A stretch of DNA of 64,000 nucleotides from an uncultured Candidatus Melainabacteria bacterium (lineage in GTDB: Bacteria > Cyanobacteriota > Vampirovibrionia > Gastranaerophilales > Gastranaerophilaceae): NCBI GenBank assembly GCA_934754775.1, contig CAKVIM010000010.1:4535-68534 (forward strand). The letters run 5' to 3'. The translations under genes were made by a program, and so were the position numbers. Positions 9,964 to 63,380 of the stretch are shown one piece after another; position 1 is the stretch's first letter; each line of letters starts with the position of its first letter. A model generated the notes under the pieces. It had not been told where the DNA came from. It did no database searches and worked only from the letters and a program-made list of their open reading frames with translations.

Positions 9964-10167
9964 TTTAAGCCTCTCTTATAGTTAAATATCTCTTATGTAT
10001 ATATAAAGTATTTAACATTTCAAAAATTGCCTTTTTTAACAGCTTATATTAAGAATTGTAACAAAGTCATTAAAATTTTTCAATTTTGTAAACATTTTGA
10101 AATATTGCAATACAAAAAAAAAAGATTTTTTGCTAAACTAATGTTGTATGTAATTGGAAGGAAATTT

Positions 10168-12673: not shown

Positions 12674-12760
12674 ACAATTATTTTAATGTAATTAGATAAA
12701 AAATCAAGATTCTTTACTTTTCTAACCTACTGCGGTATCATTTTTTTAGGGAGAAAAAGG

Positions 12761-13798: not shown

Positions 13799-13811
13799 TC
13801 TTAAAAATACA

Positions 13812-13860
13812 TTGCAAAACACCAATCTTAATTCTATACTTGAATAAAGGTTGGTGTTTT
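13812..13860 (+). promoter_or_regulatory. Promoter embedded in a hairpin between pheS and the M48 protease gene
   Basis: TTGCAA (13812-13817) and TATACT (13835-13840), with a 17-base spacer, make a good sigma-70-type promoter for the gene starting at 13864. The same stretch is an inverted repeat, AAAACACCAA (13816-13825) against TTGGTGTTTT (13851-13860), which could act as the pheS terminator. Terminator and promoter therefore share the same DNA. Confidence 0.45.
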
Positions 13861-13863
13861 ATT

Positions 13864-17445: not shown

Positions 17446-18309
17446 ATGAAGAAGTTATTACTGGTTTTTATATTATCAACATTCTTAACTCCGTGCTCTA
17501 TGGCTGAAAGCAGCCCAAAATTTAGTCTCGGAATATTTCATAATGATTCAAGAGCAATAAAATCTGTTCTGAATTCTCAAGTAAGATACGCTAATCGTAC
17601 AAATTTCAACAAATTTATTGCTACATATGATACAAACTACAAGAATTCTGACGGATTTGATTTAGAAACATATTCTAAGCTTGTAAAAGAGATTTGGGAA
17701 AGTTACGACAAAATCAAATATGGAATAAAGATTAAGGACGTTGCAGTTGATGACGACACTGCAACCGTAAGCGTTATCGAAACATCTTTTGCTAATATGC
17801 CTGCTTCCGCTCACATGGACGGCGTATTGAACAGTGAATCTGATAGCATTTACAACCTAAAAAAAATAAACGGCAAATGGAAAGTGGTTTCTGATTCCGT
17901 GGTTTCAGAAAAGACTTCTATGCTATACGGCGAAGCCAGAAACCTTGACATCAAACTAACTGCACCGGAAGAAATTCAGCCAAACAAAGAATATACAGCA
18001 ACTTTAGAGTTTGAGCCGCCAAAAGATACAATTGCGATAGCTTCTATAGCAAACGACAAAGTTGAATATCCGCAAAAACCGACAAAAGAAGTTTTCAGAA
18101 AACTTCCGGAAGACAATATTTTAGAAAGATTGTTTGTATCTAATTCCGATAACGTCAATGAATATATCGTAGCTTCAATAGGTTTAACAAAAGCAGATGT
18201 ATCGGATTTAAGCATAAAACTTAGCTTAACAGGGTTTGGATACCAGATAACAAGAGTTAACGTTGTTCCGCCAAAAACAAATGAGGAGAAAAATGACGAA
18301 AGCAAGTAA
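17446..18309 (+). CDS. Secreted protein with NTF2/SnoaL-like domain
   Basis: This 287-residue protein has a signal peptide (MKKLLLVFILSTFLTPCSMA). A domain at about 30-160 reads like an NTF2/SnoaL-like fold: VLNSQVRYANRTNFNKFIATYDTNY, then the strand block VDDDTATVSVIETSF and the closing LKKINGKWKVVSDSVVSE. A C-terminal Ig-like or beta domain (about 165-275, LDIKLTAPEEIQPNKEYTATLEFEPP) follows. It may bind a small ligand in the periplasm. The start may be leaderless. Its end overlaps lspA by 17 bases, so lspA and rluD are in the same operon. Confidence 0.65.
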   Translation: MKKLLLVFILSTFLTPCSMAESSPKFSLGIFHNDSRAIKSVLNSQVRYANRTNFNKFIATYDTNYKNSDGFDLETYSKLVKEIWESYDKIKYGIKIKDVAVDDDTATVSVIETSFANMPASAHMDGVLNSESDSIYNLKKINGKWKVVSDSVVSEKTSMLYGEARNLDIKLTAPEEIQPNKEYTATLEFEPPKDTIAIASIANDKVEYPQKPTKEVFRKLPEDNILERLFVSNSDNVNEYIVASIGLTKADVSDLSIKLSLTGFGYQITRVNVVPPKTNEEKNDESK

Positions 18310-18766
18310 AATAATATACTTCATCATATCTGTTATATTTTTTGCATTGTTTGATACAGCTTGCTCTGATTTTGTCATAAAAAACATAAACAACTTACCA
18401 CAAAACAAAATCCTTGATTTAATCTTCATCCAAAATTCCGGAGCCGCATTTAGCATACTTGAAAACTACAAGCTGCTTCTGATTGTGTTCGCAATAATTG
18501 CAATCCTCGGAATATTTTTCTACATAATAAAACATGCAAAGCAAATTTCTACAATGACAACCTTTTGGTTCGCAATGCTTGCTGCCGGAATCTTCTGCAA
18601 CATGTACGAAAGAATTGTTTTCGGATACGTTAGAGATTTTTTCAAGCTTAACTTCGTAAACTTCCCTGTATTCAACATTTCAGACGTTTTTATCAACGTC
18701 AGCGTTTTTGTAATAGTTATAATGATTATAAATAATGAAATTAATAATAGACGAACTAACAGATGA
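18293..18766 (+). CDS. lspA: Lipoprotein signal peptidase (signal peptidase II)
   Basis: The predicted protein is 157 residues from ATG 18293, which follows a GAGGAGAA ribosome site. An upstream ATG at 18263 is less likely. It has four membrane helices. The conserved blocks of LspA are IQNSGAAFSILEN, GIFCNMYERIVFGYVRDFF and VFNISDVFINVSV. The two catalytic aspartates are probably the D of YVRDFF and the D of NISDVF. It removes signal peptides from prolipoproteins in the inner membrane. It overlaps rluD by 32 bases, the same gene pair order as lspA-rluD (ylyB) in Firmicutes. The GNxxDR motif is changed to NMYER, a mild divergence. Confidence 0.9.
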   Translation: MTKASKIIYFIISVIFFALFDTACSDFVIKNINNLPQNKILDLIFIQNSGAAFSILENYKLLLIVFAIIAILGIFFYIIKHAKQISTMTTFWFAMLAAGIFCNMYERIVFGYVRDFFKLNFVNFPVFNISDVFINVSVFVIVIMIINNEINNRRTNR

Positions 18767-19637
18767 AAATAGAATTGACGCATACCTTGCGGATTTAATG
18801 AGTGATTTTTCACGCTCAAAAATACAATCAGAAATCAAAAAAGGTGGAGTTCTTGTTAATTCAAAAATCGTAAAACCTTCTTACTGCATTAAAGAAGGCG
18901 ATGTTATTGAATTTAACGCAACCTCCGAGGTCAAAATCGAACCTGAGAATATTCCGCTAAACATAGTTTGGGAAGACGAAAATATGCTCGTTGTAAACAA
19001 ACCGTCCGGCATGCTTACACACCCCACAACTGTTGAAAAAAGCGGGACTTTGGTTAACGCACTTCTCTTTAAATACGGCGAAAATCTATCTGATATAAAC
19101 GGCGAATTCAGGCGTGGAATACTTCACCGTCTTGACAGAAACACTTCGGGATTGCTTATGGTAGCCAAGAATAACGACACTCACGACTACCTTGTAAAAG
19201 AGATGAAGCAAGGCGGAATGACTAAAAAATATTTGGCTGTAGTTAAAGGCGTGATTGAGCAAGATGAGTTCACAATAAACAAACCAATCGGAAGAAATCT
19301 CCGTCAACCGCAGAAAATGGCAATTATCGAAGGCGGAAAAGATAGTATTTCCGTGGTTAAAGTTCTAGAAAGGTTTAAAGACGCAACGCTCGTTGAAGTT
19401 CACTTAATAACGGGACGCACGCACCAAATACGTGTTCACATGGCAAGCATCGGGCATCCGGTATACAATGACACACTTTACGGCTTCGGGAAAATGAAAA
19501 TCAAAACAGAAGAGCAAGTATTGCAATCATACAAGCTTGAGTTTCCGCACCCGTTCGACGGCGAAAAAATTGCTCTTGAGATACCGACGGACGAAAAAAT
19601 AGAAAAAGTTCTAAACTACTTACGCTCAATTGCTTAA
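18735..19637 (+). CDS. rluD: RluA/RluD-family 23S rRNA pseudouridine synthase
   Basis: This 300-residue protein has an N-terminal S4 RNA-binding domain (about 10-75) and a pseudouridine synthase domain with the catalytic HRLDRNTSGLLMVAK block. KKYLAVVKG and LITGRTHQIRVHMASIGHPVYND are diagnostic RluA-family motifs. It isomerises specific uridines of 23S rRNA. Which ones (RluD-type 1911/1915/1917 or another) cannot be read from the sequence. It is co-translated with lspA. Confidence 0.9.
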   Translation: MKLIIDELTDENRIDAYLADLMSDFSRSKIQSEIKKGGVLVNSKIVKPSYCIKEGDVIEFNATSEVKIEPENIPLNIVWEDENMLVVNKPSGMLTHPTTVEKSGTLVNALLFKYGENLSDINGEFRRGILHRLDRNTSGLLMVAKNNDTHDYLVKEMKQGGMTKKYLAVVKGVIEQDEFTINKPIGRNLRQPQKMAIIEGGKDSISVVKVLERFKDATLVEVHLITGRTHQIRVHMASIGHPVYNDTLYGFGKMKIKTEEQVLQSYKLEFPHPFDGEKIALEIPTDEKIEKVLNYLRSIA

Positions 19638-19780
19638 CGCAAGCCTTGCTCTGGGTGAGCAGAATTTGATTTCACAATCTCGTAATACTCGTTTTTGTCA
19701 ATATTTACGCCCATATTTTTCGTATCAATCGTAAATTTCTTTTTCTTCTTCGGTTTATAAGGATTCTCGAATGATTTCAT
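19634..19780 (-). CDS. Small hypothetical protein (48 residues) coupled to panD
   Basis: This ORF starts at ATG 19780 inside the last codons of panD (26-base overlap, different frame), after a GAAGGAA ribosome site. It ends at 19634, overlapping the rluD stop by 4 bases. The peptide begins [20 protein letters not shown], then contains [15 protein letters not shown], and is basic at its N-terminus. The tight packing between rluD and panD argues that it is real. The function is unknown. Confidence 0.5.
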
Positions 19781-20114
19781 TTCCTTCACCTACCTGAACA
19801 ATTGTTGGTTTATGAGTTTTAATTTCTTCCGGCGTCAAATCAGCGTAAGTCACAATAATAATTTTATCCCCAACTTGAGCTTTTCTAGCAGCTGCACCGT
19901 TTAAACAGAAGCATTTTGAACCACGTTTCCCCTTAATAGCATAAGTTTGAAAACGTTCGCCGTTATTAATATTCAAGATTTCTACTTTTTCCCATTCCAT
20001 AATTTGAGCTTGTTCTAAGAACTCTTCATCTATTGTTATTGAGCCAACATAATTAAGATTTGCGTCCGTAACTGTCGCTCTATGTATTTTTGAATTTAAA
20101 AATTGTCTTAACAT
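19755..20114 (-). CDS. panD: Aspartate 1-decarboxylase proenzyme
   Basis: This 119-residue protein makes beta-alanine for pantothenate and coenzyme A. The self-cleavage site is G24-S25 (NYVGSITID), giving the pyruvoyl cofactor at S25. K9 ([10 protein letters not shown]), [27 protein letters not shown] and the final strand match PanD, and the length is usual. No panB or panC is near. Confidence 0.95.
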
Positions 20115-20211
20115 ATCTACCTCGCATCCTATATACTACCACGAAAATTAATTATGTGGGTGATGAATATTTTTTCCATTAGTTTAAACTGATATAAAAG
20201 GAGGGGGAATA

Positions 20212-20442
20212 ATGCTTGATTTATACATTTTAGAGGATTGTCCTTATTGCAAAAAAGTTCTGACATTCCTAGATGAAATGGGAATAAAATTTAATAAAAT
20301 CGACATCATAGATAAAAAAAACGAAGACACCCTAGTCCAACTCGGTGGCAAACGCCAAGTTCCGTTTCTGGTCGACAAAGATAGAAATATTCAGATGTAT
20401 GAGTCCGGAGATATCATAGAATATCTAAAAACGATAATCTAA
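20212..20442 (+). CDS. Glutaredoxin-like thiol oxidoreductase
   Basis: This 76-residue protein has a thioredoxin fold with the dithiol CPYC site at 10-13, the cis-proline region RQVPFL, and ESGDIIEYL, which corresponds to the glutathione-binding SxDI. It reduces disulfides or mixed disulfides in the cytoplasm. It has its own GGAGG ribosome site. The gene is monocistronic, with a hairpin at 20487-20513 after it. Confidence 0.9.
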   Translation: MLDLYILEDCPYCKKVLTFLDEMGIKFNKIDIIDKKNEDTLVQLGGKRQVPFLVDKDRNIQMYESGDIIEYLKTII

Positions 20443-20486
20443 TACCATAATACCTTTTTCTTTACAATCCTGCTAAAATAAGGCAA

Positions 20487-20513
20487 ACCCTCAGAGCACA
20501 GGACTCTGAGGGT
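20487..20513. terminator. Hairpin between glutaredoxin and flagellin genes
   Basis: ACCCTCAGAG and CTCTGAGGGT form a perfect 10-base stem with a 7-base loop between two converging genes. The T tract is weak on both sides, so it may be a terminator or an mRNA-stabilising structure at the flagellin 3' end. Confidence 0.55.
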
Positions 20514-20562
20514 CATTGAAAGGACCTTTATTATCTCTATTATTATTTCTATTTAACACTCA

Positions 20563-21693
20563 CTAAATCAAGTTCAAAGCGATTGAAGGCATTTGGTTAG
20601 CCGTTGCCAACAATGTTGCTGTTGATTGTTGTAGTATTTGATATTTAATATAATTTGATGATTCAGTTGCTACGTCAGCATCCTTGATTGTTGAGTTTGC
20701 GTTTACAAGGTTTTCTCTTTGAACATCTGTTGAATCAATTGCTGAATCCAATCTGTTCATGTATGCACCAATTTTTGTACATCTTAGAGAAATATTATCA
20801 ATAGCATAGTCGATTTGGTCAATAAATTCACGTGCAGAGTTATCATTTCTATAAATTGCTTTACACATGTCTTCAATTGAAAAAGTCTTATCCTTAGCCA
20901 AAGTAGCACTTGCTTTGCCTTTTGCATAAGTAATTGTGCCATTTTCTGCCATTGCTGCTGCCAAAGCTGATTTATAGTAACCATCTTTGTACTTAACTGT
21001 TCCGTCAGGATTCTTTTCTGGTTCACCATTTGAATCAATTACTCTAGCTCTGTAGATGAAACCATTAGCAGCATCTTCTGCATCTTTTGTTTGTAAGTCT
21101 AAATACCCTTCAGGATTTCCGCTTGCATCTTTTTTATTAGCAGAACCAAAACCAAAAATTACAGTTGATTTTGCACTAGCGAATAAGAATGCATCCATCT
21201 TAATAACGCATCTTGCGTCTGAATACAAACCAACTTGCAAGTTGATATCAGTTTCTCTTGAACCATCAAGCAAATATGTATCATTGAAATCTGTAATCGT
21301 ACATAGACGGTTGATTTCATCCATTCTTTGAACAACTTCGGTAGCAATTGCGTTCAATGATGCTGAACCATAAGTACCGTTCGCTGCTTGCATGGTCAAA
21401 TCTCTAATTCTTTGTAAGTAGTCGTTAATGATATCCAAAACACCTTCTTGAGTTGTTAACATATCCAACCCCATTTGAGCGTTTGTTTCAATAATGTCAT
21501 AACCACTAACTTTAGCTTCCATTCCTGCAGACACTGCATAGCCTGCTGCGTCATCCTTGGCTGAGTTTATCTTGAAGCCAGTAGATAATCTCTCCATTGC
21601 TGTGTTCATTCCCTTAGTAGCACTTCTAAGGTTTGATTGACAGGTCAAAGATGACAAGTTTGTGTTAATTGTAATCGTTGATGTAGCTGTCAT
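20563..21693 (-). CDS. fliC: Flagellin
   Basis: This 376-residue protein is the filament subunit. The N-terminal D0/D1 part (1-145) has TINTNLSSLTCQSNL, MERLSTGFKINSAKDDAAGYAVSAGM and QMGLDMLTTQEGVLDIINDYLQRIRDLTMQAANGTYG. A short variable middle (about 165-270) is followed by a C-terminal D1/D0 part (275-376) with IDYAIDNISLRCTKIGAYMNRLDSAI and ILQQSTATLLATANQMPSIALNLI. It holds five cysteines (18, 131, 162, 277, 305), unusual for flagellin. The gene stands alone with a sigma-28 type promoter at 21741-21767 and a GAAAGGA ribosome site. No chaperone FliS or cap FliD is adjacent. Confidence 0.95.
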   Translation of the reverse strand: MTATSTITINTNLSSLTCQSNLRSATKGMNTAMERLSTGFKINSAKDDAAGYAVSAGMEAKVSGYDIIETNAQMGLDMLTTQEGVLDIINDYLQRIRDLTMQAANGTYGSASLNAIATEVVQRMDEINRLCTITDFNDTYLLDGSRETDINLQVGLYSDARCVIKMDAFLFASAKSTVIFGFGSANKKDASGNPEGYLDLQTKDAEDAANGFIYRARVIDSNGEPEKNPDGTVKYKDGYYKSALAAAMAENGTITYAKGKASATLAKDKTFSIEDMCKAIYRNDNSAREFIDQIDYAIDNISLRCTKIGAYMNRLDSAIDSTDVQRENLVNANSTIKDADVATESSNYIKYQILQQSTATLLATANQMPSIALNLI

Positions 21694-21740
21694 AATAAAT
21701 TTCCTTTCAATAAATTTATATTTTTTGCCTTTCTCTTTTG

Positions 21741-21767
21741 TTTACGGCAGAAATTTTTTGAACTTTA
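21741..21767 (-). promoter_or_regulatory. Sigma-28 (FliA) type promoter of the flagellin gene
   Basis: On the minus strand the site reads TAAA (21764-21767), a 15-base spacer, then GCCGTAAA (21741-21748). The sigma-28 consensus is TAAA-N15-GCCGATAA, so -35 and spacing are exact and the -10 matches at 6 of 8 positions. The -10 element ends 47 bases before the flagellin ATG. A sigma-28 family factor is encoded at 401-1219. Confidence 0.75.
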
Positions 21768-21830
21768 CAACTTTAGTTGGAGAATCATCCATTTGGAGGA
21801 GATAGACATAACATTAATGTTCAAAACAAA

Positions 21831-22227
21831 CGTCATTCGCACCACGAGCTGTAATCTTTAGCACCACGAGCGTCCCTTAGCGAGTGCAAGAGTGCAGGCT
21901 CTGCCTGCTACAGCCATTTGAACCACGCTCGTCAGAGCGTAGGAACATTAGCCGAGGTTCTCTTTCTTTTGGTATCTTTTCTTTCTCTTTAATTGCTTAG
22001 GCAAAGAGAAAGAAAAGTACATTTAAGGAACTTTTTTATTTCAAAATAGTTCTTCATTTTCTTTTCTTTATTGCGAAAAAAGAAAAGAAAACGAAGCAAA
22101 AGAAAAGAAATGACGCACTGTTTTCTACAACCTTACGGTTGTGGATTGAATGGCTATTGCAGGCAGAGCCTGCACTTTTGCACTCGCTATCGCAGCTGGT
22201 CGCTGCACGCTCGTGGTGCGAATGATG
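21831..22227. repeat. Large foldback (inverted-repeat) element
   Basis: The left arm 21831-21926 and the right arm 22141-22227 are imperfect inverted copies. The best blocks are 21831-21849 against 22209-22227 and 21878-21926 against 22141-22189. Words such as TGCAGGCTCTGCCTGC and GCACCACGAGC appear in both arms. The 214-base centre contains two further hairpins made of A/G- and T/C-rich arms (21977-22016 and 22057-22091). Just right of the element, 22243-22259 forms a small hairpin (TTGGGG...CCCCAA). The 739-base gap 21694-22432 holds only this element, the flagellin promoter and the rubrerythrin leader. An apparent ORF at 22071-22304 lies inside it and looks spurious. Confidence 0.7.
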
Positions 22228-22432
22228 TTCTACAGATTGTTATTGGGGTGAAACCCCAACCTACTCGCTCGTGGGGTATAGAGATGTTTGATTTAGATTT
22301 TTAAAATATGGCATGTCTTTCAGACATGCTCATCTCATACTAAAGTTATAGAACTAGCCATGTGGTCCCCACGATTGACTAATATAAAACCACATTCCAA
22401 AAAGTTATTTTATCTTAGTAAGGAGATAAAAT

Positions 22433-23005
22433 ATGAAACTAGAACACTCAGAAACACTACAATGTCTTGTAAACGCATTTGCAGGAGAATCACAAGCCCG
22501 CAACCGTTATACTTTTTACTCAAAAGTCGCCAAACAAGAAGGGTATGAGCAAATAAGCCAAATATTTCTAGACACGGCTTCTAACGAGCAAGAGCATGCC
22601 AAACTATTCTACAAACATATCCCAAACTCTGAGCATCTAACCGTTACAGGTGCTTATCCGTTCTTTTTCGGAAACACTCATCAAAACTTGATGGCTGCAG
22701 CATCAGGCGAAAGAGAAGAGTGGGAATTTTTGTACAAAAATTCGGCACAAGTAGCGAAAGCAGAAGGGTTTGAAGATATAGAAAGATTGTTCAGCAATAT
22801 TTTAGAAATAGAAAAACACCATGCCCACAGATTTGAGCTTCTGGCTGAAGAAGTTAAATCAGAAAGCGTGTTCAAAAAAACTGAAGTCAGACAATGGGTT
22901 TGCAGAAAATGCGGACATATCCAAATCGGGAAAGAAGCTCCTTGTGAATGTCCTGTATGCTCGCACCCGCAAGGATATTTCGAAATCTTTAACGAGAATT
23001 TTTAA
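22433..23005 (+). CDS. rbr: Rubrerythrin
   Basis: This 190-residue protein has an N-terminal four-helix di-iron domain with the glutamate/histidine ligands in NAFAGESQARNRY, NEQEHAKLFYKH, GEREEWEFLY and EIEKHHAHRF. A C-terminal rubredoxin domain has two CxxC pairs (WVCRKCGH and CPVCSHPQGYF). It reduces hydrogen peroxide to water in the cytoplasm of anaerobes. A strong AAGGAG ribosome site precedes it, and a palindrome GCATGTCT/AGACATGC lies at 22311-22329. It is transcribed alone with a terminator at 23026-23061. Confidence 0.95.
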   Translation: MKLEHSETLQCLVNAFAGESQARNRYTFYSKVAKQEGYEQISQIFLDTASNEQEHAKLFYKHIPNSEHLTVTGAYPFFFGNTHQNLMAAASGEREEWEFLYKNSAQVAKAEGFEDIERLFSNILEIEKHHAHRFELLAEEVKSESVFKKTEVRQWVCRKCGHIQIGKEAPCECPVCSHPQGYFEIFNENF

Positions 23006-23025
23006 TAATAAATTTAATGTTACAA

Positions 23026-23061
23026 AAGCTTTACATATATTAATGTAAAGCTTATTTTTTT
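23026..23061 (+). terminator. Rho-independent terminator of rubrerythrin
   Basis: AAGCTTTACAT and ATGTAAAGCTT form an 11-base perfect stem followed by a T tract. Confidence 0.85.
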
Positions 23062-23107
23062 GTATAATTTTATCCATCACTGGAATTAATTTAGCGGAGA
23101 ACTTTTT

Positions 23108-26100
23108 ATGAAAAAGAACAATATTAAGGCATTAGTCTGTATTGCGGCACTCGTGAGTGCAATGTCTGCAAACGCAGTTCTCGCAGACGATTTGACAATT
23201 TCTCAAGGCGAGAATATAACCCACGGAGCATCCGATCCTACGTCTTATGACAATGTAAACAATGCAGGTACGTTTTCTAACGAAGCTCAACTTGATATAA
23301 GCAATACACTTACAAATAACGGAATATTGAACAATATTAACACAATCACTTCCAACACAATCATTAATGAAATCGGTAGTGAATTCAATAACAAAAATAA
23401 TCTCGGTACTTCCAATAATTCTGTTAACAATCTTACTAACAACGGATTTTTTAATAACGGAGAAACTGGAAGCACAGGTAACATCTATGCCAATAACGTA
23501 ACAAATAACGGAGATTTTACCAATAATAACAGTAATATATCTATAGATAGTAGTTTTACAAACGAAGGAACTTTCACAAATGAAGCCGGCAACATTCAAG
23601 CTAAAAATGCGAACGACGGTAAGTTTGAAAACAACAATAGCTTCGTAAACAATGGCGGCAACATAACTATTGGTGAAATTATCAACAAAGGAACGCTAAA
23701 CAACAATAATGGCGGTGGTAACATTACAGGCTCTCTAAGTTTCACAAATGAAGGCGAAATCATTAATAACGGTGGATTCCTTAACACAGCCGGAACATTT
23801 AAAAATACAGGCAATATAATAAACAAAAGCAGTAGTACAAACACCTCTTCTATAATTGCAAAAGAGATTGTAAACAGTGGAAGCGGAGTTATTGACAACC
23901 TTGCAAATATCACTGCGAATACAAATTTTACAAATAGTGCAACCTATACTAATGAGAGCGGAGCAAATCTTAACGCCCCAAATGTTGATAACAGCGGAAA
24001 ATTTACTAACAAAGGAACCGTTACTTCTGACAACTTTACTAACAGCGGTAACGGCAACGTGACAAACTCCGGCACAATCGCTGCGTCAAACAGTTTCACA
24101 AATAGTGCTACATTCACTAATGAAACTGGCGGAACACTTGATTCACCTACCATCGAGAACAGCGGAAAGTTTACAAACAATGGAACTGTTAAATCTACTG
24201 ATTTTACTAACAGCGGTAACGGCAACATAACTAATTCCGGCACAATACAGGTTACTGACCTCAACAATGCGGCTAAAATTGTAAATAACAAAACATTTAT
24301 AGTAAACGGTTCAAATAACACAACTCAAAACAGTGGTTCTATCTTAAACAAAGGTACATTTGATTTTGGTACCGGTTCAGGAAACAAGCTCTTAAACACC
24401 GGTAGTTTTGTCAACGATGGCGGGTTGCTTACAAATGTAATTGTTAATAACACAAATACATTAATTGCTCAAAACTCTGCAACAATGGATATTGAAAGTC
24501 TTACAAACACCGGCAAAGTAGACTTAATTAACGGTTCAAAGCTCATTCTGAACAACCAAGTCGGGGATTTAGGCGGAACCTTTAATGTAATAGGAAATTC
24601 TCAATCAGGCGATACCAACCAGTTAACTATCGTAAATGGAGATAACAATTTCGTTGGAGATTTAAATCTGGGGAACGGACAAGACAAATCAGATTTATTA
24701 ATCAACAACGTTAAAATTACAGAAGATGCGGTTGTTAACATTAATCAAGGCGGCAAGCTTCTTGTAAGCAACGATTCTGAACTTAACCTAAACGACGGCG
24801 ACAATGTTAGCGGCGACATATCTGTCTATAAAGACAGCACAACAGGCAAAGAAGGGACTATTAATCTTAATAACTTCACCTTAATGACAGGAAGTAAATC
24901 CTCTCAAGAAGGAAGCGATATGCCTTATTACTCACAAGTCGGCGGAACTTTGAATTTATTAAACGGTTCAAAATTAGGTCTTGGCGACTCTGCAGCTATG
25001 AATGGCGGCACATTAAACATTGATGGCACATCTCAATTCCTTGTTACGTCAGAAGCTAACGGGACTAAGAATAATTTCTTGGATAATCTAATTATCGCTG
25101 ACGGCGGTAAGTTCGGAGCAATGAACGGCGGTGTAGCGGATTACGCAATCGGAAATATCCAAGTAAACGGAACTACGGACTTCACTATCGATGTCTACGC
25201 AAGAACAAATACAAACCACATGTTCGCAACCGATTTATTTAACGGCAATGCACTTACAGGTGACGGCGTAATCAACGTTGCGGATTGGAGTTTAGGCGGC
25301 GATATCTTTGGTTGGGATGCTCCAATCGATAGAGATTTTAATTTAGGTAACATTTTTGATTACCAAAACATCGCCCCGACAGTTAAGCTAACTGCAACAA
25401 AGAAAGAAACATTCACTCCAATCGGTTGGTATCAACTTAACAACCACAGCGGAATTGATGGTAATTACACATTGAACCTTACAAGATTTAATCCGCAAGT
25501 ATACAGAGGTCAAGTTACAACCTTATCTCAATACATGAACCAACTTGCTATTGATGATATGTTGTTCAACCACTCAATGTTGCTTCCAAGCTTCAAGGAT
25601 GACGATTTGTCCGACAACGGAGCTATGGCAAACAGATACGCAGCTGCAAATCCACTATACGCACCTTACCAATACTCTAAAAAAGATGGCGGGCTATGGT
25701 ACAGAATGTATGGAACATTTGAAACTCTTCAAATGAATCAAGCAGGCTTAGGCAGAGTCGGAAACAACGCTTACGGAACAATAATCGGTGCTGACTTCGG
25801 ACTTAAAGAGCTTAAAAACGGTTGGAAATTTATGCCAACTGCATACATCGGATATAACGGTGCTCACCAATACTTTGCCGGCATGGGTGCTTACCAAAAC
25901 GGCGGTCAAGCAGGTTTCTTAGGAACATGGTACAAAAATAACTTCATCTTAGGCGGTTTAGTATATGGTGGTGTTTATCAAAACAGCATGGATATTGCAG
26001 GTCACACAGATAACACTTTCAACTACTTCGCCGGTGCTTCTGCAAAAGGTGCTTACAACTGGAGATTCCACAGAGATTGGGTGTTGCAACCTAACTTAAT

Positions 26101-52628: not shown

Positions 52629-54401
52629 TTATAATTTTTCCGGATTTCTCAGCGGAATCAATCTGTCTAAGTCTGAGTTCAAGCTGAAGTAGAATCTTGC
52701 GGTGCTTTCACTATACGAACGAGTAAGTGGGAAGCCGATACCGATTTGTGCTGTCAGCCAATCAGTGAAGTTGATGTATGTACCGACACCTACTGAATGC
52801 AAGAAGTTTTGCGGATAATTGTAGATGTGACCGTTTTCTCTCAACCAGCCCCAATCATAGAATACAGCCAGTTTCAAACGTTCATCAACTTTCGGAAGTA
52901 TTCTGTCTAAGAATGGAACAGGGAATCTATATTCAACAGTACCTGTAACACCATAGTCACCGATTAATTCAGCCGGTTGGTAACCTCTTAATGAGTAAGG
53001 ACCACCCATTTGCATTTGTTCTGCTGCGAACAATTTGTTTGGTGAGTACTGACCGTTAACTCTTACGATACCCATGCTACGTCCGAACAATCTTTGAACA
53101 CGAGTAGCGCCTGCTGTCAACTTGAAGAATGTTGTATCTTGTTGAGCACCGTGACCGTCACCGCCCATACCGAAGTCAACACCTAAGTTGCCTAACCAAC
53201 GACCGTAATTGTCATCAGTCATACCGTACAATCCTGAACGCCATACGTTCAAGTTGTAATTTGACAATCTAGCAGGATTATTTGTATTGTTAAATGCAGA
53301 TGTATTAGCATTTACGTAATCGTAACCTGTATATAAAACTAAATCAGTCTTAGCTGTTTGAATCAATGGTTGAGTTAATTTAAAGAAGTAACTTTGTGCA
53401 TTACCTTTAACATCTATTCCTTTGTAAGGGCCGCCCAATCTTACGTGTGAATCAGAAAAGTCAAATGACAATCTTGTGCCATATGAAGATACCGGAAGTG
53501 AATATCCAGCCATCCAACCGGTAGCACCTGATGATAAGATTGTACCACCGTAGATTTTATCGCCCAAACCTGTCAAGTTATCCATACCTACAAGGAATGA
53601 AACTCTTTGAGCACCTGTATAAGAACGACCGTAATCGTCATATGAGAAGTTCAAGTTAACAGGGAATCTGTCTCTAACATTCAATGTAATTGCAGTGTCT
53701 TCATCGCCTGTTTGTTGTCTTTCAACTTCAGTTTGAACTTGAACATAATCTTCTTTATTGATTTCCTTCATTGCTCTTTGAAGGTTTTTAGCGTTAAATA
53801 CATCTCCTTCACGAAGACCGGCTTTACCCATAATGATATGTCTTAAGTACCATTCACGAGTCCATTTTTCGCCTTCGATATTGAGTTCGCCAACTTTACT
53901 TTCAATAATCTTGATAGTTGCAACACCATCCACAATTCTTTGAGGTGGAACAGTTGCATATGAAGTCAAATAACCTTTTGCACGATAATAGTTTGTAACT
54001 TTTTGACAAACTTCCAACAATTCATCAAAGTAAACATCTTCACCCAAAACTTCCAAACCCAGTTTTTCCAACTCATCGGAAGATATTTTGGTATTGCCTT
54101 CAAAATTTATCTTTTGCAACAAGAAGTGAGGATTGTATATCATACCCTCTCTTGCTTGGTTTTCTTCAATTGAAGCATCATAAATCTGTTCATCTTTTGT
54201 TACGTCATCAAAAGACTGAATATAGCTCTTATCTATTTTGAAATGGTTAGAGTTCAGTTCTTCTAAGGTATTATACATACCGCCGGAACCTTGTCTTTCC
54301 AATTCAGCTTGAAATCTTGGAGATAAGGCAGGATCTGCGAACGCTTGATTTACTGCAAGCAAGCATAATGCAGTGAGCAAATAGCTTATTTGTTTCTTCA
54401 T
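52629..54401 (-). CDS. Outer-membrane transporter of the TpsB/ShlB (Omp85) family
   Basis: The predicted protein is 590 residues from ATG 54401, chosen because it starts the signal peptide MKKQISYLLTALCLLAVNQAFA. Two upstream in-frame ATGs add a non-signal extension. It has two POTRA-like domains (about 95-250, LQKINFEGNTKISSDELEKLGLEVLGE and IVDGVATIKIIESKVGELNIEGEKW) and a ShlB/FhaC-type barrel (about 255-590) with the conserved VRxxDG-like loop GGPYSLRGYQPAELIGDYGVTGTVEYRFPV. It would export one large exoprotein across the outer membrane. No TpsA partner is next to it. The end strand has aromatic residues (FYFSLNSDLDRL). It lies just upstream of smc on the same strand. Confidence 0.87.
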   Translation of the reverse strand: MKKQISYLLTALCLLAVNQAFADPALSPRFQAELERQGSGGMYNTLEELNSNHFKIDKSYIQSFDDVTKDEQIYDASIEENQAREGMIYNPHFLLQKINFEGNTKISSDELEKLGLEVLGEDVYFDELLEVCQKVTNYYRAKGYLTSYATVPPQRIVDGVATIKIIESKVGELNIEGEKWTREWYLRHIIMGKAGLREGDVFNAKNLQRAMKEINKEDYVQVQTEVERQQTGDEDTAITLNVRDRFPVNLNFSYDDYGRSYTGAQRVSFLVGMDNLTGLGDKIYGGTILSSGATGWMAGYSLPVSSYGTRLSFDFSDSHVRLGGPYKGIDVKGNAQSYFFKLTQPLIQTAKTDLVLYTGYDYVNANTSAFNNTNNPARLSNYNLNVWRSGLYGMTDDNYGRWLGNLGVDFGMGGDGHGAQQDTTFFKLTAGATRVQRLFGRSMGIVRVNGQYSPNKLFAAEQMQMGGPYSLRGYQPAELIGDYGVTGTVEYRFPVPFLDRILPKVDERLKLAVFYDWGWLRENGHIYNYPQNFLHSVGVGTYINFTDWLTAQIGIGFPLTRSYSESTARFYFSLNSDLDRLIPLRNPEKL

Positions 54402-54626
54402 AATTTCCGTATTCCTAATTTTCATTATTGGGTTATAACTTTGTACTTCTTCTAACATTATATTTAAACTAAAAACTCAAAACAAATTAAATTGCTAGAA
54501 TGTTACAAAATATTAACTTTATAATTTTAACTCATTTATTAAAATTTGTAAAGATGTTTTCCGTGGATTGTTACTTTCTGAAAAATTAGTGGAATATAAA
54601 AATTAGCACGGATAAGGAGTTTAATT

Positions 54627-56817: not shown

Positions 56818-58281
56818 CTACAAATCATTTCCACAATAAGATAAGTTGAAGCTCTTATTACACAATGGGAAGTCTGAAACGCCATTATTTCTTACTGCCA
56901 TTGCGAGCATATACCAGTTATTAAATGAAGGATCTTTCATTTTATATCTCAAAAGTTCTCCATTTGCACCGGTAACTGCGATATGAACAATCTCACCTCT
57001 CCAACCTTCTGTCATTGAAACAACAAAAGAGTTTGGTGTCAACTTAGTATTTGGTGTAACCTTAAGCGGTTCAGCTTTATATTCCTTAAGTTTTGCAAGT
57101 AATTTTTTAACAATCTGCATAGATTGTTTAACTTCCTTGTATCTCAACTTAAATCTTGAATGGACATCCCCTGTAGCCTTGAAAGGTTTAACAACGTCAA
57201 GAGATGTGTACCACTTATCATTAAAGTCAAATCTTGTATCAATATCCACGCCTGAAGAACGAGCAGCCATACCAACTGCACCTAGAGCCTTTGCGGTTTC
57301 TTTGCTTACAACACCGGTTCTTTCCATTCTGGAAATACAAGATGGTGTTCTTAGCATAATCTTAGTTGTTCTATCAACAGTTTTAGCGACCTTATCAAGC
57401 ATTTCAACAATCTTATCTGACATCTTTTCATCAATATCAAAGTTTACACCGCCGACATTAATCAAACCTCTGCCAAAACGGCTTCCTGAGATTTCTAACA
57501 TTGTATTGATAACCAAAGTTCTTGTAATACCAAATATTGACGCACCCATCAAGTATGCCATATCTCCGCCAATAGCACCCATATCACCTATGTGAATAGC
57601 CATTCTTTCCATTTCTAAAGCGATACGACGAATGATTTGAGCCTTATTAGAAACAGTTGAGTCTGACAAAGCTTCCATTGCTTGAGAGTATGTCATATTA
57701 TAACCGATTACTGAATCACCACAAACAGATTCAGCCAATCTGTTATTATATCCTTTACCCTTCAAGAACAATTCTTCCACGCCTCTGTGTTGGTATCCGA
57801 GCATAATTTCTAAGTCGTAAACCTTCTCACCCTGGCACATAAATCTAAAATGCCCCGGTTCAATAACCCCTGCGTGAATAGGTCCAACCGCAACCTGGTG
57901 GATATCTTCACCTTCCATTTCAAAGAACGGATACTTGTCTTGATTTACACGAACCGGCTTTAACCAAGGGTGATGCAACGGTTCAATTCCGAATTCTTCA
58001 TAAAATTCTCTTTCAAAAATATGAAAAGCAGGAATTGTTTGTGTAAATGATTCGTAAGACTTCATTTCAGGAGTGAACAAAGTTGATGTCACATAAAGTT
58101 TACCAACCTTATCGTCAGCCATAACAACATACAATCTTACATTTGCGAATTCTTGTTTTCCAAAGAACCCTACAACTCTCATTTTCATCTTCTCGACATC
58201 AGACTTGATTTCGTCTATAGAAATGGTCGGAATATCCAATGCGTAAATTTTCTTATTATTTTCAGTTATTATCCAATTCAT
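56818..58281 (-). CDS. HyfG-like large subunit (NuoCD type) with altered NiFe ligands
   Basis: This 487-residue protein has an N-terminal NuoC-like domain (about 1-120) and a C-terminal NuoD/HycE-like domain. VGPIHAGVIEPGHFRFMCQGEKVYDLEIMLGYQHRGVEELF is the standard group 4 block. At the first NiFe-ligand site, where hydrogenase III/IV has CGIC, the protein reads C187-G-D-S190. At the C-terminal site, where the family has DPCxxC, it reads SYC483-G-N-D486 and ends one residue later. So only the first cysteine of each pair is kept, and there is no C-terminal extension for maturation cleavage. This matches the idea of an Ehr (hydrogenase-related) subunit more than a hydrogenase. No maturation genes are near. 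Confidence 0.82.
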   Translation of the reverse strand: MNWIITENNKKIYALDIPTISIDEIKSDVEKMKMRVVGFFGKQEFANVRLYVVMADDKVGKLYVTSTLFTPEMKSYESFTQTIPAFHIFEREFYEEFGIEPLHHPWLKPVRVNQDKYPFFEMEGEDIHQVAVGPIHAGVIEPGHFRFMCQGEKVYDLEIMLGYQHRGVEELFLKGKGYNNRLAESVCGDSVIGYNMTYSQAMEALSDSTVSNKAQIIRRIALEMERMAIHIGDMGAIGGDMAYLMGASIFGITRTLVINTMLEISGSRFGRGLINVGGVNFDIDEKMSDKIVEMLDKVAKTVDRTTKIMLRTPSCISRMERTGVVSKETAKALGAVGMAARSSGVDIDTRFDFNDKWYTSLDVVKPFKATGDVHSRFKLRYKEVKQSMQIVKKLLAKLKEYKAEPLKVTPNTKLTPNSFVVSMTEGWRGEIVHIAVTGANGELLRYKMKDPSFNNWYMLAMAVRNNGVSDFPLCNKSFNLSYCGNDL

Positions 58282-58293
58282 AATTATTCCTTC

Positions 58294-59718
58294 CTAAAAA
58301 CCTGCTACTGCAGCCAATAACATTTGACTAAGCCCCTGCGGCATATAAATACCGATAATAAATGCTATAAGAAGCATAGCTATTTGAGGGAAATACATGT
58401 TCCAAGCCAATTTTTTCGGAGCAATTTCTTCACCTGATTTTGCAGAGAATGTCATCTTGATAACAGCCTTTGCCAATCCGTAAATTACAATCGTTAAAAG
58501 TAGCAAGAACAATGCACATATTATAAAATGTCCTCTTAAAAACATTGATTTTACAATCAAAAATTCACTTATAAACAAAACTGATGGCGGGAATGCTGCA
58601 ATACCCAAGAAAGATATTACCCACAACCAACCTGTCTTTTTATCAGTTTTCAAAAGGCCTGTTACTGATTTAATCTTCTTTGTTCCATAGATTTCCAAAA
58701 TATTACCGGAAGTTAAGAAGAAAGAAGCCTTAATCAAAGAGTGACCAATCAAGTGAATCATAGCAGCCAACATACCGATACCGCCCAACGCCGTACCAAT
58801 TGCAAGAATACCCATATTCTCAATTGATGAATAAGCAAGCATTCTCTTGTAATTATTGATATGATAAACAAATACTGCTGTGATAAACAAAGATATCAAG
58901 CCCATTGTCATTAGCATTATTCTTGCATAATCAGAGCAACCCGCCAAAACAAGAATTCTGAATACATTCAAAATCATCAAGAAAGCTGAATTCAAAAGTG
59001 TTGCAGATAAAAGTGCTGAAATCGGTGACGGAGCTTCTGCGTGAGCATCAGGTAACCAGAAGTGAACAGGTGCAAGACCCATTTTTGTACCGATACCAAA
59101 TAATATAAATACAAATGACAACTTTAACCAGAATTGGTTAAACAAAGGTGCATTATGATATAAATCGTTATAGAACAATGTGTTCAAATTGCCGGTTGCA
59201 ATTGTCAAAAGAATAATACCAACAAACGCTAAAGCAATACCGATAGAACAAATAAATACATACTTCCAAGCAGCTTCAATTGAATGTTTTGTCTTGTGGA
59301 AATAAATCAAATAAGCACTTGCCAAAGTAGTACCTTCAATGAATACCCAAGTGATACCCAAGTTTTCACTCAACACAGCACCTGTCATTGAGAAAACAAA
59401 GAACAACACCATATAGGTATAATGTCTGATTTTTCTTACCTGTTCTTCAACATCCTTGTGGTAACCGTTATTATAAATAGCAACACCCAAGAACACGATT
59501 GACATAACCATCAAAAAGATTTTATTAGTATCGTCAATTGCGAAAAATTTGTTGCCGCCCCACATTGGTAAAAAGTCAACGTTAAAGAACAAAGCCGTTG
59601 AAACGATAAAATGTAATATTGCATACAAATTTATCATTAAATTATTCAAGCAACCTTTCTTGAATATAAATAATATTAAGCACGCTAAAAGCGGAAATAA
59701 CAAAATTAAATTAATCAT
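58294..59718 (-). CDS. hyfF: HyfF-like antiporter-type membrane subunit (NuoN/M/MrpD-like)
   Basis: This 474-residue protein has about 13 membrane helices and the antiporter motifs WVFIEGTTLASAYLI, GTKMGLAPVHFWLPDAHAEAPSPISALLS and YSSIENMGILAIGTAL. Conserved Lys and His residues in mid-helix could carry protons or sodium. It is the third membrane gene of the Hyf order. Its last bases overlap hyfE. Coupling of electron transfer to ion pumping is inferred from homology. Confidence 0.82.
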   Translation of the reverse strand: MINLILLFPLLACLILFIFKKGCLNNLMINLYAILHFIVSTALFFNVDFLPMWGGNKFFAIDDTNKIFLMVMSIVFLGVAIYNNGYHKDVEEQVRKIRHYTYMVLFFVFSMTGAVLSENLGITWVFIEGTTLASAYLIYFHKTKHSIEAAWKYVFICSIGIALAFVGIILLTIATGNLNTLFYNDLYHNAPLFNQFWLKLSFVFILFGIGTKMGLAPVHFWLPDAHAEAPSPISALLSATLLNSAFLMILNVFRILVLAGCSDYARIMLMTMGLISLFITAVFVYHINNYKRMLAYSSIENMGILAIGTALGGIGMLAAMIHLIGHSLIKASFFLTSGNILEIYGTKKIKSVTGLLKTDKKTGWLWVISFLGIAAFPPSVLFISEFLIVKSMFLRGHFIICALFLLLLTIVIYGLAKAVIKMTFSAKSGEEIAPKKLAWNMYFPQIAMLLIAFIIGIYMPQGLSQMLLAAVAGF

Positions 59719-60418
59719 TGTACTCGTAATCCTTTAAATCTGATAATTGTGAAACTTCTAAATCGTCAAATTCATTGTTAATCTCTTTAACTAACATACC
59801 CAAGATGAATACGGCGATAAATATATCAAGCAAAACACCAAGGTTTACAATAATTGGCATTTCCTTCGCTACAGAAAGTGAAAGTAAAAAGATACCATTT
59901 TCCATTGTGATAAAACCAATTACGTTTGACAGAACTTTGTGCTTAATTGTAATCAACCACAAACTTGTAATTATGATTGCGATTGATACGCCAAAATACA
60001 TTGGGTCAACTAACTTAAATTGCGGAGCATCAATATTCGCAACCAAGAATCCTGCAAACAAAATTACGCTTGAAATGAACAAGCAATAAAAGTGCGGAAT
60101 GTTTGCATCTGTATCTCTGTGTGCATGAGTCTTTTTAACAACTTTCTTCAAAAACAAAGGAATTACAAATGCCTTTACTATCAAAGTTTCTACAATTACA
60201 AACAAAAATCCTAAAATGTGTGGCATATTTGCAATAATAGATTCCGGACCGGATATCATTGACCAATTAAACCAAGGTTCTTTTGCAAAACCGGTTAAAC
60301 ATACAAAGAACAACAACCAACCTTGAATAATCAGCATGTTTACGTGTGCCGCCAAACGGCTCGTTGCTGCAATGTATATCATAGATAAACCTAATAAAAT
60401 TATAAATATGTTTTCCAT
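59711..60418 (-). CDS. hyfE: HyfE-like membrane subunit
   Basis: This 235-residue protein has about six membrane helices and corresponds in length and order to HyfE: MIYIAATSRLAAHVNMLIIQGWLL, ILGFLFVIVETLIVKAFVIPLFL and VIGFITMENGIFLLS. Its exact role in the complex is unknown. It overlaps hyfF by 8 bases. Confidence 0.8.
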   Translation of the reverse strand: MENIFIILLGLSMIYIAATSRLAAHVNMLIIQGWLLFFVCLTGFAKEPWFNWSMISGPESIIANMPHILGFLFVIVETLIVKAFVIPLFLKKVVKKTHAHRDTDANIPHFYCLFISSVILFAGFLVANIDAPQFKLVDPMYFGVSIAIIITSLWLITIKHKVLSNVIGFITMENGIFLLSLSVAKEMPIIVNLGVLLDIFIAVFILGMLVKEINNEFDDLEVSQLSDLKDYEYND

Positions 60419-60470: not shown

Positions 60471-61388
60471 CTAGCCGCCATAAACTCTATATGTTACCAA
60501 AGCTAACATAATTAGAGCCGTAATAGACATAATGAATATAAATTCAAATACGTGTGTCATTCTGAATCTTGCCATTGATGATTCTACAGTACCAATGATT
60601 ACTGCAAGAATAAATACAATTGCCAAGAATGCCAACAATGCTGCCCAACCTGTCATTGACGCAGGTATAATCAAATTAGCTATCAAAGCTTCAAACAGAA
60701 GCATCTTGATTGCTGAACCCCAAGTTATCATACCTAAATCAACACCAGAGTTATCAAGAATCATAACTTCATGAATCATTGTTAACTCCAAGTGAGTTGT
60801 AGGATCATCAACCGGAACTCTGCAGCCTTCGATTAACAACATTATGAATAACGTAATCACTGCTAAGACAATGATTAAGAATCCATAACCACCAGCATTT
60901 GAAAGAATTAATTTGAAACTGTCAAATGTGTAATTTTGGCTCAAAGCCGCAATTGATGCCATACCGATAAAGAATGCCGGTTCAACAATTGTTGAGAAGC
61001 AAGCTTCACGAGAAGCACCCATTCCTTCAAAGCTGCTACCTGTATCCAACGCAGCAATCAAAGAGAAGAACTTACCAAAACCGAGTACATAAGAAAATAC
61101 TACAAATGCAAACGGAATATTGATAACAGCTCTGCCGGAAGCCAAAGGTACAAACAATGCTGCAAATATTACAGAAGCAAATCCCACAATAGGAGCAAAC
61201 TTAAACACCCATGATGTAGTCTCGCTGATTACTGAGTCTTTTTTCATAAGTCTTAAGAAATCCCACAAAGGTTGCCAAATACTTACACCCTTTCGGCCTG
61301 CCCAAAAGGCTTTTGTTTTCTTTATTACGCCCACCATCAAGAAAGGCACTATTAATAGAATTAATATATTAACTAATAAATTAATCAT
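60471..61388 (-). CDS. hyfC: HyfC/NuoH-like membrane subunit
   Basis: This 305-residue protein has about eight membrane helices. KTKAFWAGRKGVSIWQPLWDFLRLMKKDSV is the NuoH/HycD cytoplasmic loop, followed by FAPIVGFASVIFAALFVPL, GSSFEGMGASREACFSTIVEPAFF, a VPVDDPTTHLELTMIHEVMILD acidic block, and GWAALLAFLAIVFILAVI. NuoH-like subunits link the peripheral arm to the ion channel. It lies 52 bases upstream of hyfE. Confidence 0.87.
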   Translation of the reverse strand: MINLLVNILILLIVPFLMVGVIKKTKAFWAGRKGVSIWQPLWDFLRLMKKDSVISETTSWVFKFAPIVGFASVIFAALFVPLASGRAVINIPFAFVVFSYVLGFGKFFSLIAALDTGSSFEGMGASREACFSTIVEPAFFIGMASIAALSQNYTFDSFKLILSNAGGYGFLIIVLAVITLFIMLLIEGCRVPVDDPTTHLELTMIHEVMILDNSGVDLGMITWGSAIKMLLFEALIANLIIPASMTGWAALLAFLAIVFILAVIIGTVESSMARFRMTHVFEFIFIMSITALIMLALVTYRVYGG

Positions 61389-61394: not shown

Positions 61395-63380
61395 CTAACC
61401 CCCAAAGTAAATCATACCGATTATTGCAAGTATCAAGAATATCAAACCGAATAAAATATACTGCTGTATATTACCGCTCTGAATTCTTTCAAACTTAGCA
61501 AGAAGTTTTTCATCCCATTGAAGCAATGGCTTAACAATATAAGCTTCTTCAATATCTTCAATTTCTAATTCATAATAAGCTTCCTTAGGGAATAATTCCT
61601 TTGGTTTCTTAATATGTGAAACTCTCTTGAACAAAGGTTTCAATGTTGAAATGAATAAATTAGCGTAAGATGAAGCTGTGTACTGCATATGATTGTTTGC
61701 TCTATTATATCCGCAGCCCCAAGTGCAATGTTTTGCAGATTTCTTTCTCATTGCAGCTTTTAAAGCAAACAAAACTACAATCATCACGAAGAAAATTAAG
61801 AAGCAAACACTTATAGCACCTGTTAAATCAAATATTGAATTAAATACTTGATATGCCATTCTGTTCCTTACAAACATCGCAGTCGGCATCAAAACTCCGC
61901 CAATAAAGTATTGAGGGAACATACCAATTAACAACGTTGCAACAGATAAAATTCCCATCGGAACCAACATAACCGGTGATACATCTTCCTTCACATTAGC
62001 AGCCTTTTCTGTTCTCGGATTACCCAAAAACATAATACCGGAAGCCTTTGTGAAACAAAGCATCGCCATTGTACCAACCATTGCCAAACCAGCAATAGCA
62101 AATACCAACGTTATAAACAAGTTAAGTTCTGAAGAAGGAATTCCTTGGAACATACCTGCGTATATCAAGAATTCACTTATAAATCCGTTAAACGGTGGCA
62201 AACCGCAAATCGCTACAGAACCAACTATAAACATCAAAGCGGTATAAGGCATCCCCTTAATAAGTCCGCCCAACTCTTCAATATTTCTTGTATGTGATTT
62301 CAAATAAGCACTACCTGCTGCAAAGAACAAAAGTTCCTTGAATATAGAGTGGTTCAAGATGTGCAAAATACCGCCGGCAAATCCTAAAGCCGCAACGACA
62401 GGACTTCCATAAGCTAAGCCCAACATACCAACCGCAATACCGATACCAATAATACCAATATTTTCTATACTGTGATAAGCAAGTAATCTTTTTATATCGT
62501 GCTGTGTAATTGCATACAAAACACCATACAAAGCAGATATTACTGCAATTACCAAAACTGTATAAGAAATCATTTTTGAAGGCGTACCCACAAACAACAA
62601 TGTTCTTAAAATACCATATATACCAGTCTTAATCATCACACCTGACATAATACCTGATACATGGCTTGGTGCAGCAGGGTGAGCGTCCGGCAACCAGTTA
62701 TGGAACGGAACAAAACCTGCCTTGATACCAAAACCTACAAATGCAAGCAAGAATACCAAGTTTGACAATGCTTCTTTACCTTGCAGTGCTGCTGCAAAGT
62801 CCATGAAGCTTAAGCTGTTTGATTGCAAGTTTAATAAAACAAATGCAGCAATAATAAACACTACTGACAAGTGCATATAAACTAAATACTTAATGCCCGC
62901 AGAAAGAACCTCTTTCTTTTGTCCCTCGAATATTACCAAGAAGAATGATGAAAGTGACATCACCTCCCATACAATCAAGAAGAACAATGCGTTCTGAACA
63001 GTTACGACCATAAGCATTGACATAATCAACATCATCAAAAAGAAACAATGTGATGAAACGTTCATACCCTTATCCAAATAAGGTTTCATATAACCGTTCG
63101 CATACAAAGTTCCTAAGAAACTCATAATCGAAATTACAATAACAAAAAATGCTGATAAAGGATCAATAACAAAACTTACATCACCCAAAACAGGTGACAT
63201 ATAAATAGTTTGACCCAACGGCATTCCTGTCAACAATACAGCGGCAGCCGGTAAAAGCATTGCAACTGCAGATAAAAATGAAAAAATTGAGCATACCTTA
63301 AATTTTAAATGCTCTCTCACTACCGTCGAAAGTAAAGCCCCCAACAATAGCATTCCTAATGATAAAAAATAAATTTTCAT
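61395..63380 (-). CDS. hyfB: HyfB-like antiporter-type membrane subunit
   Basis: This 661-residue protein has about 14 membrane helices in the antiporter fold (WEVMSLSSFFLVIFEGQKKEV, GIKAGFVPFHNWLPDAHPAAPSHVSGIMSGVMIKTGIYGI, LAYHSIENIGIIGIG, GILHILNHSIFKELLFFAAGS). A C-terminal segment holds the HycC/HyfB hallmark (CTWGCGYNRANNHMQYTASSYANLF). It is the first gene of the operon. HyfD has no counterpart here. Confidence 0.88.
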   Translation of the reverse strand: MKIYFLSLGMLLLGALLSTVVREHLKFKVCSIFSFLSAVAMLLPAAAVLLTGMPLGQTIYMSPVLGDVSFVIDPLSAFFVIVISIMSFLGTLYANGYMKPYLDKGMNVSSHCFFLMMLIMSMLMVVTVQNALFFLIVWEVMSLSSFFLVIFEGQKKEVLSAGIKYLVYMHLSVVFIIAAFVLLNLQSNSLSFMDFAAALQGKEALSNLVFLLAFVGFGIKAGFVPFHNWLPDAHPAAPSHVSGIMSGVMIKTGIYGILRTLLFVGTPSKMISYTVLVIAVISALYGVLYAITQHDIKRLLAYHSIENIGIIGIGIAVGMLGLAYGSPVVAALGFAGGILHILNHSIFKELLFFAAGSAYLKSHTRNIEELGGLIKGMPYTALMFIVGSVAICGLPPFNGFISEFLIYAGMFQGIPSSELNLFITLVFAIAGLAMVGTMAMLCFTKASGIMFLGNPRTEKAANVKEDVSPVMLVPMGILSVATLLIGMFPQYFIGGVLMPTAMFVRNRMAYQVFNSIFDLTGAISVCFLIFFVMIVVLFALKAAMRKKSAKHCTWGCGYNRANNHMQYTASSYANLFISTLKPLFKRVSHIKKPKELFPKEAYYELEIEDIEEAYIVKPLLQWDEKLLAKFERIQSGNIQQYILFGLIFLILAIIGMIYFGG

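Follow-up and report, generated by a model that had tools for sequence, protein, structure and literature searches.

In energy-converting hydrogenase-related (Ehr) complexes, hydrogenase-like subunits that lack the residues of the NiFe site are encoded beside membrane subunits of the complex I/Hyf type. Ehr was reported in four representative Melainabacteria genomes, with the Ni- and Fe-coordinating residues missing and redox-coupled ion translocation suspected (PMC6349859). Ehr complexes without the NiFe-binding residues or the CxxC motifs were also described in Nitrospira, CPR, ammonia-oxidising archaea and Sulfobacillus (PMC10284858, PMC7304191, PMC10432482, PMC4378227), and further examples come from Saganbacteria and Geobacter, the subunits of the latter being given in PMC7894505. 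The role of these complexes is called unknown (PMC10284858, PMC10432482, PMC4378227).

Ligand cysteines have also been lost from the MBS of P. furiosus, in which MbsL keeps two of the four (C85 and C385), neither involved in catalysis, and the proximal cluster has three coordinating cysteines and a shortened loop (PMC7684303). In the hydrogenase subunit HycE, Glu193 has a described role and the canopy residue D529 is called strictly conserved (PMC9474812). NiFe hydrogenases have been credited to Gastranaerophilales of the koala gut (PMC4040986).

The stretch of DNA analysed here (the window, 64,000 nucleotides) encodes a protein, EhrL, that a preliminary description took for a hydrogenase-like large subunit keeping the first cysteine of each of the two ligand pairs. 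EhrL is indeed the large subunit of an Ehr complex, but an ordinary one, of a kind already published, and nothing was found to set it apart from described Ehr complexes save a lineage-specific cysteine, C187.

The Ehr operon of the window

EhrL is the fifth of six consecutive genes on the minus strand, from 63380 to 55911, which make up a complete Ehr operon of four Hyf-like membrane subunits (HyfB-, HyfC/NuoH-, HyfE- and HyfF-like), a large subunit and a small subunit:

61395..63380, minus strand: EhrA, HyfB-like antiporter-type membrane subunit, first gene of the operon (PF00361; best model HyfB, below its curated cut-off)
60471..61388, minus strand: EhrB, HyfC/NuoH-like membrane anchor (PF00146, E 1e-31)
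59711..60418, minus strand: EhrC, HyfE-like membrane subunit (NF008556, E 2.2e-17, below its curated cut-off; no Pfam match)
58294..59718, minus strand: EhrD, HyfF-like antiporter-type membrane subunit (PF00361; best models HyfF, below their curated cut-offs)
56818..58281, minus strand: EhrL, hydrogenase/NuoCD-like large subunit, 487 residues
55911..56648, minus strand: EhrS, small subunit, 245 residues (PF01058, E 8e-29)

Antiporter-like membrane subunits encoded in the same operon as EhrL are among the features expected of an Ehr complex. The gene order A-B-C-D-L-S was found in 19 of 20 Ehr loci compared, and the remaining locus (L034) begins inside the operon; two Bacteroidota loci (L067 and L070) have an extra HyfB-like gene ahead of it. 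Full-length relatives of EhrL share 50 to 91% identity with it in loci titled mostly Gastranaerophilales or Melainabacteria, and 42 to 44% in Bacteroidota, which makes a Gastranaerophilales (Melainabacteria) bacterium the most likely host. Downstream of the operon, at 52629-54458, the window encodes a ShlB/FhaC-type outer-membrane protein with POTRA domains. Genes of this ShlB-like type are the commonest extra neighbour family, and all 24 of them match the protein of the window; as they occur in only 24 of 71 loci, the gene was rejected as a conserved operon partner and taken as unrelated. Plasmid 3 of Variovorax sp. PBL-E5 (L114) carries two different Ehr operons close together, at 6851-14135 and 17547-24731, one with a ferredoxin-type domain in its small subunit and the other without.

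Wider comparisons used 90 relatives of EhrL: 68 of a Gastranaerophilales type, 5 and 11 from two sets of Bacteroidota and 6 borne on plasmids. The main set of 76 loci was reduced to 73 (68 and 5) by exclusion of end fragments (L073, L074 and L076), and the second set of 12 loci to 11 by exclusion of L129, which is the same gene as L067. Loci L098-L107 overlap with the main set and were excluded from the EhrL counts, and the six plasmid proteins come from 5 of 240 plasmid records. The Gastranaerophilales type is a group defined by sequence, such that it includes loci titled Muribaculaceae (L056) and Fusobacterium (L062), which are probably mislabelled bins.

EhrS joins one ferredoxin-type [4Fe-4S] site (C45, C62, C65 and C68) to a NuoB/HycG-like domain, in which C129, C132, C196 and C226 are the four cysteines of the proximal cluster. 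Aligned to HycG, EhrS has no shortened loop and retains the four proximal cysteines, and its CxxC (CNGC) is of the hydrogenase type, in contrast to the tandem cysteines of complex I NuoB. All eight cysteines are present in EhrS and in 67/67 Gastranaerophilales-type small subunits counted; the search yielded no small subunit for L048 or L140. The antiporter-type residues E139, K251, H340, K348 and E403 are kept in EhrA, and E128, H322, K330 and E385 in EhrD. The antiporter-like subunits retain most of the charged residues of HycC, although EhrD has N243 in the place of lysine K239 of HycC.

Elsewhere in the family the proximal-cluster cysteines have been lost, in 5/5 Bacteroidota small subunits of the main set, in 1 of the 10 counted in the second set and in 1 of the 6 from plasmids, a Meiothermus protein. 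The replaced sites read D-C-D/E-N in L067-L071 and L130 and T-D-E-S in L115, and the ferredoxin-type cysteines are kept in all of them. The proximal site of the six plasmid-borne small subunits is CCCC in five and TDES in one; the ferredoxin site is CCCC in two, and absent or not cysteine in four. The plasmid-borne operons with a small subunit that lacks the ferredoxin-type site are L116, L117, L118 and the second operon of L114, and no ferredoxin-named neighbour was found in their gene tables, which are incomplete. Judged from these residues, the redox chain of Ehr complexes lacking the proximal cysteines seems to stop short. Because some members lose those cysteines and four of the six plasmid-borne ones are without a ferredoxin-type site, one redox mechanism need not fit the whole Ehr family.

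Ligand positions of the large subunit

The codons that bear on the ligand positions and on the surrounding pocket are as follows:

57712..57723, minus strand: CGDS, residues 187-190 (C187 at HycE C241, S190 at HycE C244)
56824..56835, minus strand: CGND, residues 483-486 (C483 at HycE S533, not a ligand position)
56830..56841, minus strand: S481-Y482-C483-G484, in register with HycE C531-Y-S-C534, the second ligand pair
57859..57861, minus strand: E141, at the place of HycE Glu193
57835..57837, minus strand: C149, partner of C474
56860..56862, minus strand: C474, partner of C149

Among solved structures, the best sequence matches of EhrL are MbhL and HycE and the best fold match is HycE (7z0s), with no MBS chain among the best 50 structural matches listed. 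The CGDS of EhrL aligns with the CGIC of HycE and MbhL, so that C187 takes the first position of the first hydrogenase CxxC and S190 the second. The CGND, which had been read as the second ligand pair, is out of register with the CYSC or CLSC of hydrogenases. From residue 425 to its end EhrL aligns with HycE with no gap, anchored by Y482 and D486, such that S481 falls on C531, Y482 on Y532, C483 on S533, G484 on C534 and D486 on D536. The register was tested by scoring the last 19 residues against HycE at shifts of -5 to +5. EhrL alone scores +21 at shift 0 and -12 or lower at each other shift, and 27 distinct Ehr tails average +22.3 at shift 0 and -15.9 or lower at the ten others. In the structural superposition on HycE (7z0s_E) the aligned stretch ends with model residue 473 opposite chain residue 523, an offset of 50 as in the sequence alignment; the tail of EhrL itself is poorly modelled, with pLDDT under 50 at residues 471-487.

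Given that C531 and C534 correspond to S481 and G484, with C483 between them, EhrL has one of the four ligand cysteines and not two: on this alignment C187 is the cysteine at a NiFe ligand position, and S190, S481 and G484 replace the other three. A misplacement of the two stretches relative to the ligand positions, named in the preliminary description as what would refute it, is shown by the alignment for CGND and not for CGDS. The symmetric loss of the second cysteine from both pairs was a misreading, since C483 is not at a metal-ligand position and the second pair, S481/G484, holds no cysteine at all. The rest of that description stands: both motifs are present at the residues given, the protein has no maturation tail, and it is an Ehr-type relative of the group 4 hydrogenases in which no NiFe site is expected. 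The last residue of EhrL, L487, aligns with HycE R537, after which HycE is cleaved; the E. coli HycE precursor is 32 residues longer.

Compared with E. coli HycE (7z0s), EhrL has replacements at C244, C531 and C534 and no C-terminal extension, and it does not carry both of the CxxC ligand pairs of a group 4 [NiFe] hydrogenase. The hydrogenase-pocket residues E141 and R428 are retained, and the canopy Asp529 of HycE corresponds to N479. The MBS of P. furiosus (MbsL, 6u8y) is likewise derived from group 4 with partial loss of the four cysteines, but MbsL has two of the four ligand cysteines beside a three-cysteine cluster, whereas EhrL has one and EhrS a four-cysteine cluster. Complex I NuoD/Nqo4 has a fold in common with EhrL, and the NiFe site is absent from both.

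Conservation and descent of the pocket

The CGD and the ending SYCGNDL are kept in 121/121 proteins (EhrL and the best 120 of 8000 matches), so that both cysteines of the preliminary description are constant in this group, a point in its favour. This conservation is not chance, because it extends over EhrL and the best 120 of 8000 and because G188, S481, Y482 and D486 are found in 90/90 of the wider set. Position 187 is cysteine in 60 of the 68 Gastranaerophilales-type sequences (N in 5, S in 3) and in 0/22 other Ehr, which have A, T, S, V or G instead. Position 483 is cysteine in 56 of the 68 (S in 10, A in 2) and in 5 of the 22. The exact CGDS/CGND pair, offered as a defining mark, is therefore variable at both cysteines even among the Gastranaerophilales-type sequences. 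Cysteine occurs at position 190 in 0/90 relatives, and at position 484 all but one of the 90 have Gly, the exception having Ala.

Other residues of the pocket vary far less. R428, N475 and K476 join G188, S481, Y482 and D486 as invariant in 90/90, and D189 (89/90, one E) and S477 (89/90, one G) are nearly so. E141 is E in 88/90, with one K and one gap, and at the position of HycE D529 there are 73 sequences with N, 16 with D and one with S. The set G188, D189, N475, K476, S481, Y482 and D486, as a putative Ehr pocket set, appears to be a new point, as does the loss of proximal-cluster cysteines in some Bacteroidota and in the Meiothermus relative. Neither this invariant set nor the exact CGDS/CGND pair was found in the available text of published Ehr descriptions (PMC6349859, PMC7894505, PMC10284858, PMC7304191, PMC10432482, PMC4378227) or in that of PMC4040986, PMC9474812 and PMC7684303, and the available text of the descriptions compared likewise holds neither a regained C187 nor the loss of the proximal-cluster cysteines.

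The descent of C187 was followed on a tree of 48 Ehr representatives (30 of the Gastranaerophilales type and 18 other), to which HycE and two NuoD were added. On this tree, made by a quick method with a single hydrogenase (HycE) and with long branches (HycE 1.45, L115 2.0), the Gastranaerophilales-type group arises from within lineages that carry S, G, V or A at 187. A constraint uniting the 18 other Ehr as one clade was rejected (p-AU 2e-10), the clade having been named after the tree was seen. Because a single regain is simpler than repeated losses on this tree, C187 looks regained, not a relic. Pairs of positions were counted in 89 rows, with the partial L027 and L054 and HycE left out. Positions 149 and 474 are C/C in 80/89, V/I in 4, A/C in 2 and otherwise in 3, and they are V/I in HycE and in several early branches of the Ehr tree. 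C187 and C483 are both cysteine in 52/89.

Candidate functions of the emptied pocket

The reading preferred here, at a probability of about 0.6, is that EhrL is the large subunit of a six-subunit Ehr complex without a NiFe site, which is ferredoxin-linked and ion-translocating and has its acceptor in the emptied pocket. A ferredoxin-linked, ion-translocating oxidoreductase fits because EhrS has two [4Fe-4S] sites and the antiporter-like subunits keep most of their charged residues. Donor use and ion pumping are putative for the present complex, and from sequence features we infer a mechanism in which reduced ferredoxin or a similar donor would feed EhrS, electrons would then reach the proximal cluster, and an acceptor would be turned over in the emptied NiFe pocket, coupled to movement of H+ or Na+. 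The acceptor would be neither a proton at NiFe nor a quinone bound by the His/Tyr pair of complex I. A bolder and doubtful proposal makes Ehr an enzyme in its own right within the complex I superfamily. The emptied NiFe pocket would have been refitted with invariant polar residues peculiar to Ehr (G188-D189-S/T190, N475-K476-S477, S481-Y482 and D486) and would act on something other than H+ or quinone, and in Gastranaerophilales the regained C187 and the C149/C474 pair near the pocket would add a thiol function.

The alternatives were weighed against gene content in 44 Ehr-bearing relatives. These comprise every full-length match in 146 genomes from the same order as a near relative (G001), the partial match G029 being excluded; absences were counted in the genomes of these relatives, whose completeness is not stated, and not in the source genome. 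The likelihoods attached to them are not exclusive, in that a quinone or sulfur acceptor is compatible with the best explanation.

Reduction of a quinone as in complex I, via a different binding pair and possibly with an imported quinone precursor, is unlikely. A UbiA-family gene is present in 44/44 relatives, and G001 encodes both a prenyltransferase that resembles MenA (below curated cut-offs) and a cluster of complex I genes, which is without NuoEFG nearby and whose subunits beyond B, D and I were named from order and look. The quinone pair of complex I, however, is not conserved: Nqo4 Tyr87 corresponds to G188 of EhrL, and H38 has no matching histidine and lies beside a two-residue gap at E141. 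MqnA was found in 5/44 relatives, MenD above cut-off in 0/44 (with two weaker matches) and cytochrome bd in 0/44, and neither MqnA nor MenD is in the six closest genomes (G001, G140, G133, G012, G104 and G115). [FeFe] hydrogenase was found in 26/44 relatives and in none of the same six. Complex I clusters without NuoEFG nearby were seen at 8444-17844 of L126 and 1655-11086 of L128, in close relatives for which searches did not find MqnA, MenD, cytochrome bd, PF00384 or [FeFe] hydrogenase.

It is rather improbable that the complex has given up redox activity and now only transports ions, with its hydrogenase arm a vestige. The proximal cysteine losses in Bacteroidota and on a plasmid would suit such a transporter, but the full complement of Fe-S cysteines in EhrS and its type, and the invariance of the pocket residues, argue against it. 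There is a slim prospect that polysulfide or another sulfane sulfur is reduced as in MBS, the solved relative with partly lost ligands (PMC7684303); the MBS reaction needs the three-cysteine proximal cluster with its shortened loop, whereas in EhrS the CxxC is of the hydrogenase type and none of the four cysteines is missing.

The preliminary description had also raised a different metal centre or a non-metal redox site. Such a metal centre, or a thiol redox site, on C187 and C483, to which C149 and C474 might contribute, is quite improbable. The constancy of both cysteines among the closest matches, their joint presence in 52/89 of the wider set and the frequent C/C state of positions 149 and 474 are consistent with such a site, but C483 is off the ligand position, C187 is N or S in 8/68 and C483 is S or A in 12/68, and C187 is absent from the 22 other Ehr. 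The two cysteines kept by MbsL are moreover reported as non-catalytic (PMC7684303). Most likely, neither C187 nor C483 is a metal ligand.

A link to formate dehydrogenase, as proposed for Ehr in the sibling lineages Riflemargulisbacteria and Saganbacteria (PMC6349859), is very improbable here. PF00384, the family that includes formate dehydrogenase, was found in 0/44 relatives and in 11 of 14 controls, and the Ehr operon of the window contains no formate dehydrogenase gene. A working NiFe hydrogenase with unusual ligands can be practically dismissed, despite the overall similarity to HycE and MbhL and the koala report, because three ligand cysteines are replaced, the C-terminus stops where the HycE extension begins, HypD, which helps build the Fe(CN)2CO unit of the NiFe cofactor, was found in 0/44 relatives (the same search being positive in 4/14 controls, including E. 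coli), and PF00374 was above cut-off in 0/44, the one sub-threshold match being an Ehr large subunit gene itself.

The preferred reading of EhrL as the large subunit of an Ehr complex bears on the koala gut as well. In Ca. Gastranaerophilus phascolarctosicola Zag_221 (G009, locus L066), Ehr is present, and HypD, PF00374 and [FeFe] hydrogenase were not found. What was described as a NiFe hydrogenase in Gastranaerophilales of the koala (PMC4040986) may be the present Ehr.

With the half-loss headline reduced to a two-residue misreading at the C-terminus, the interest that is left lies in the identity of the Ehr acceptor. Selection acts on the pocket even without a metal, and the redox chain is not uniform across the Ehr family. 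Three features make the function of Ehr testable, namely the constancy of the pocket set, the cysteine that looks regained and the absence of proximal-cluster cysteines from some lineages.
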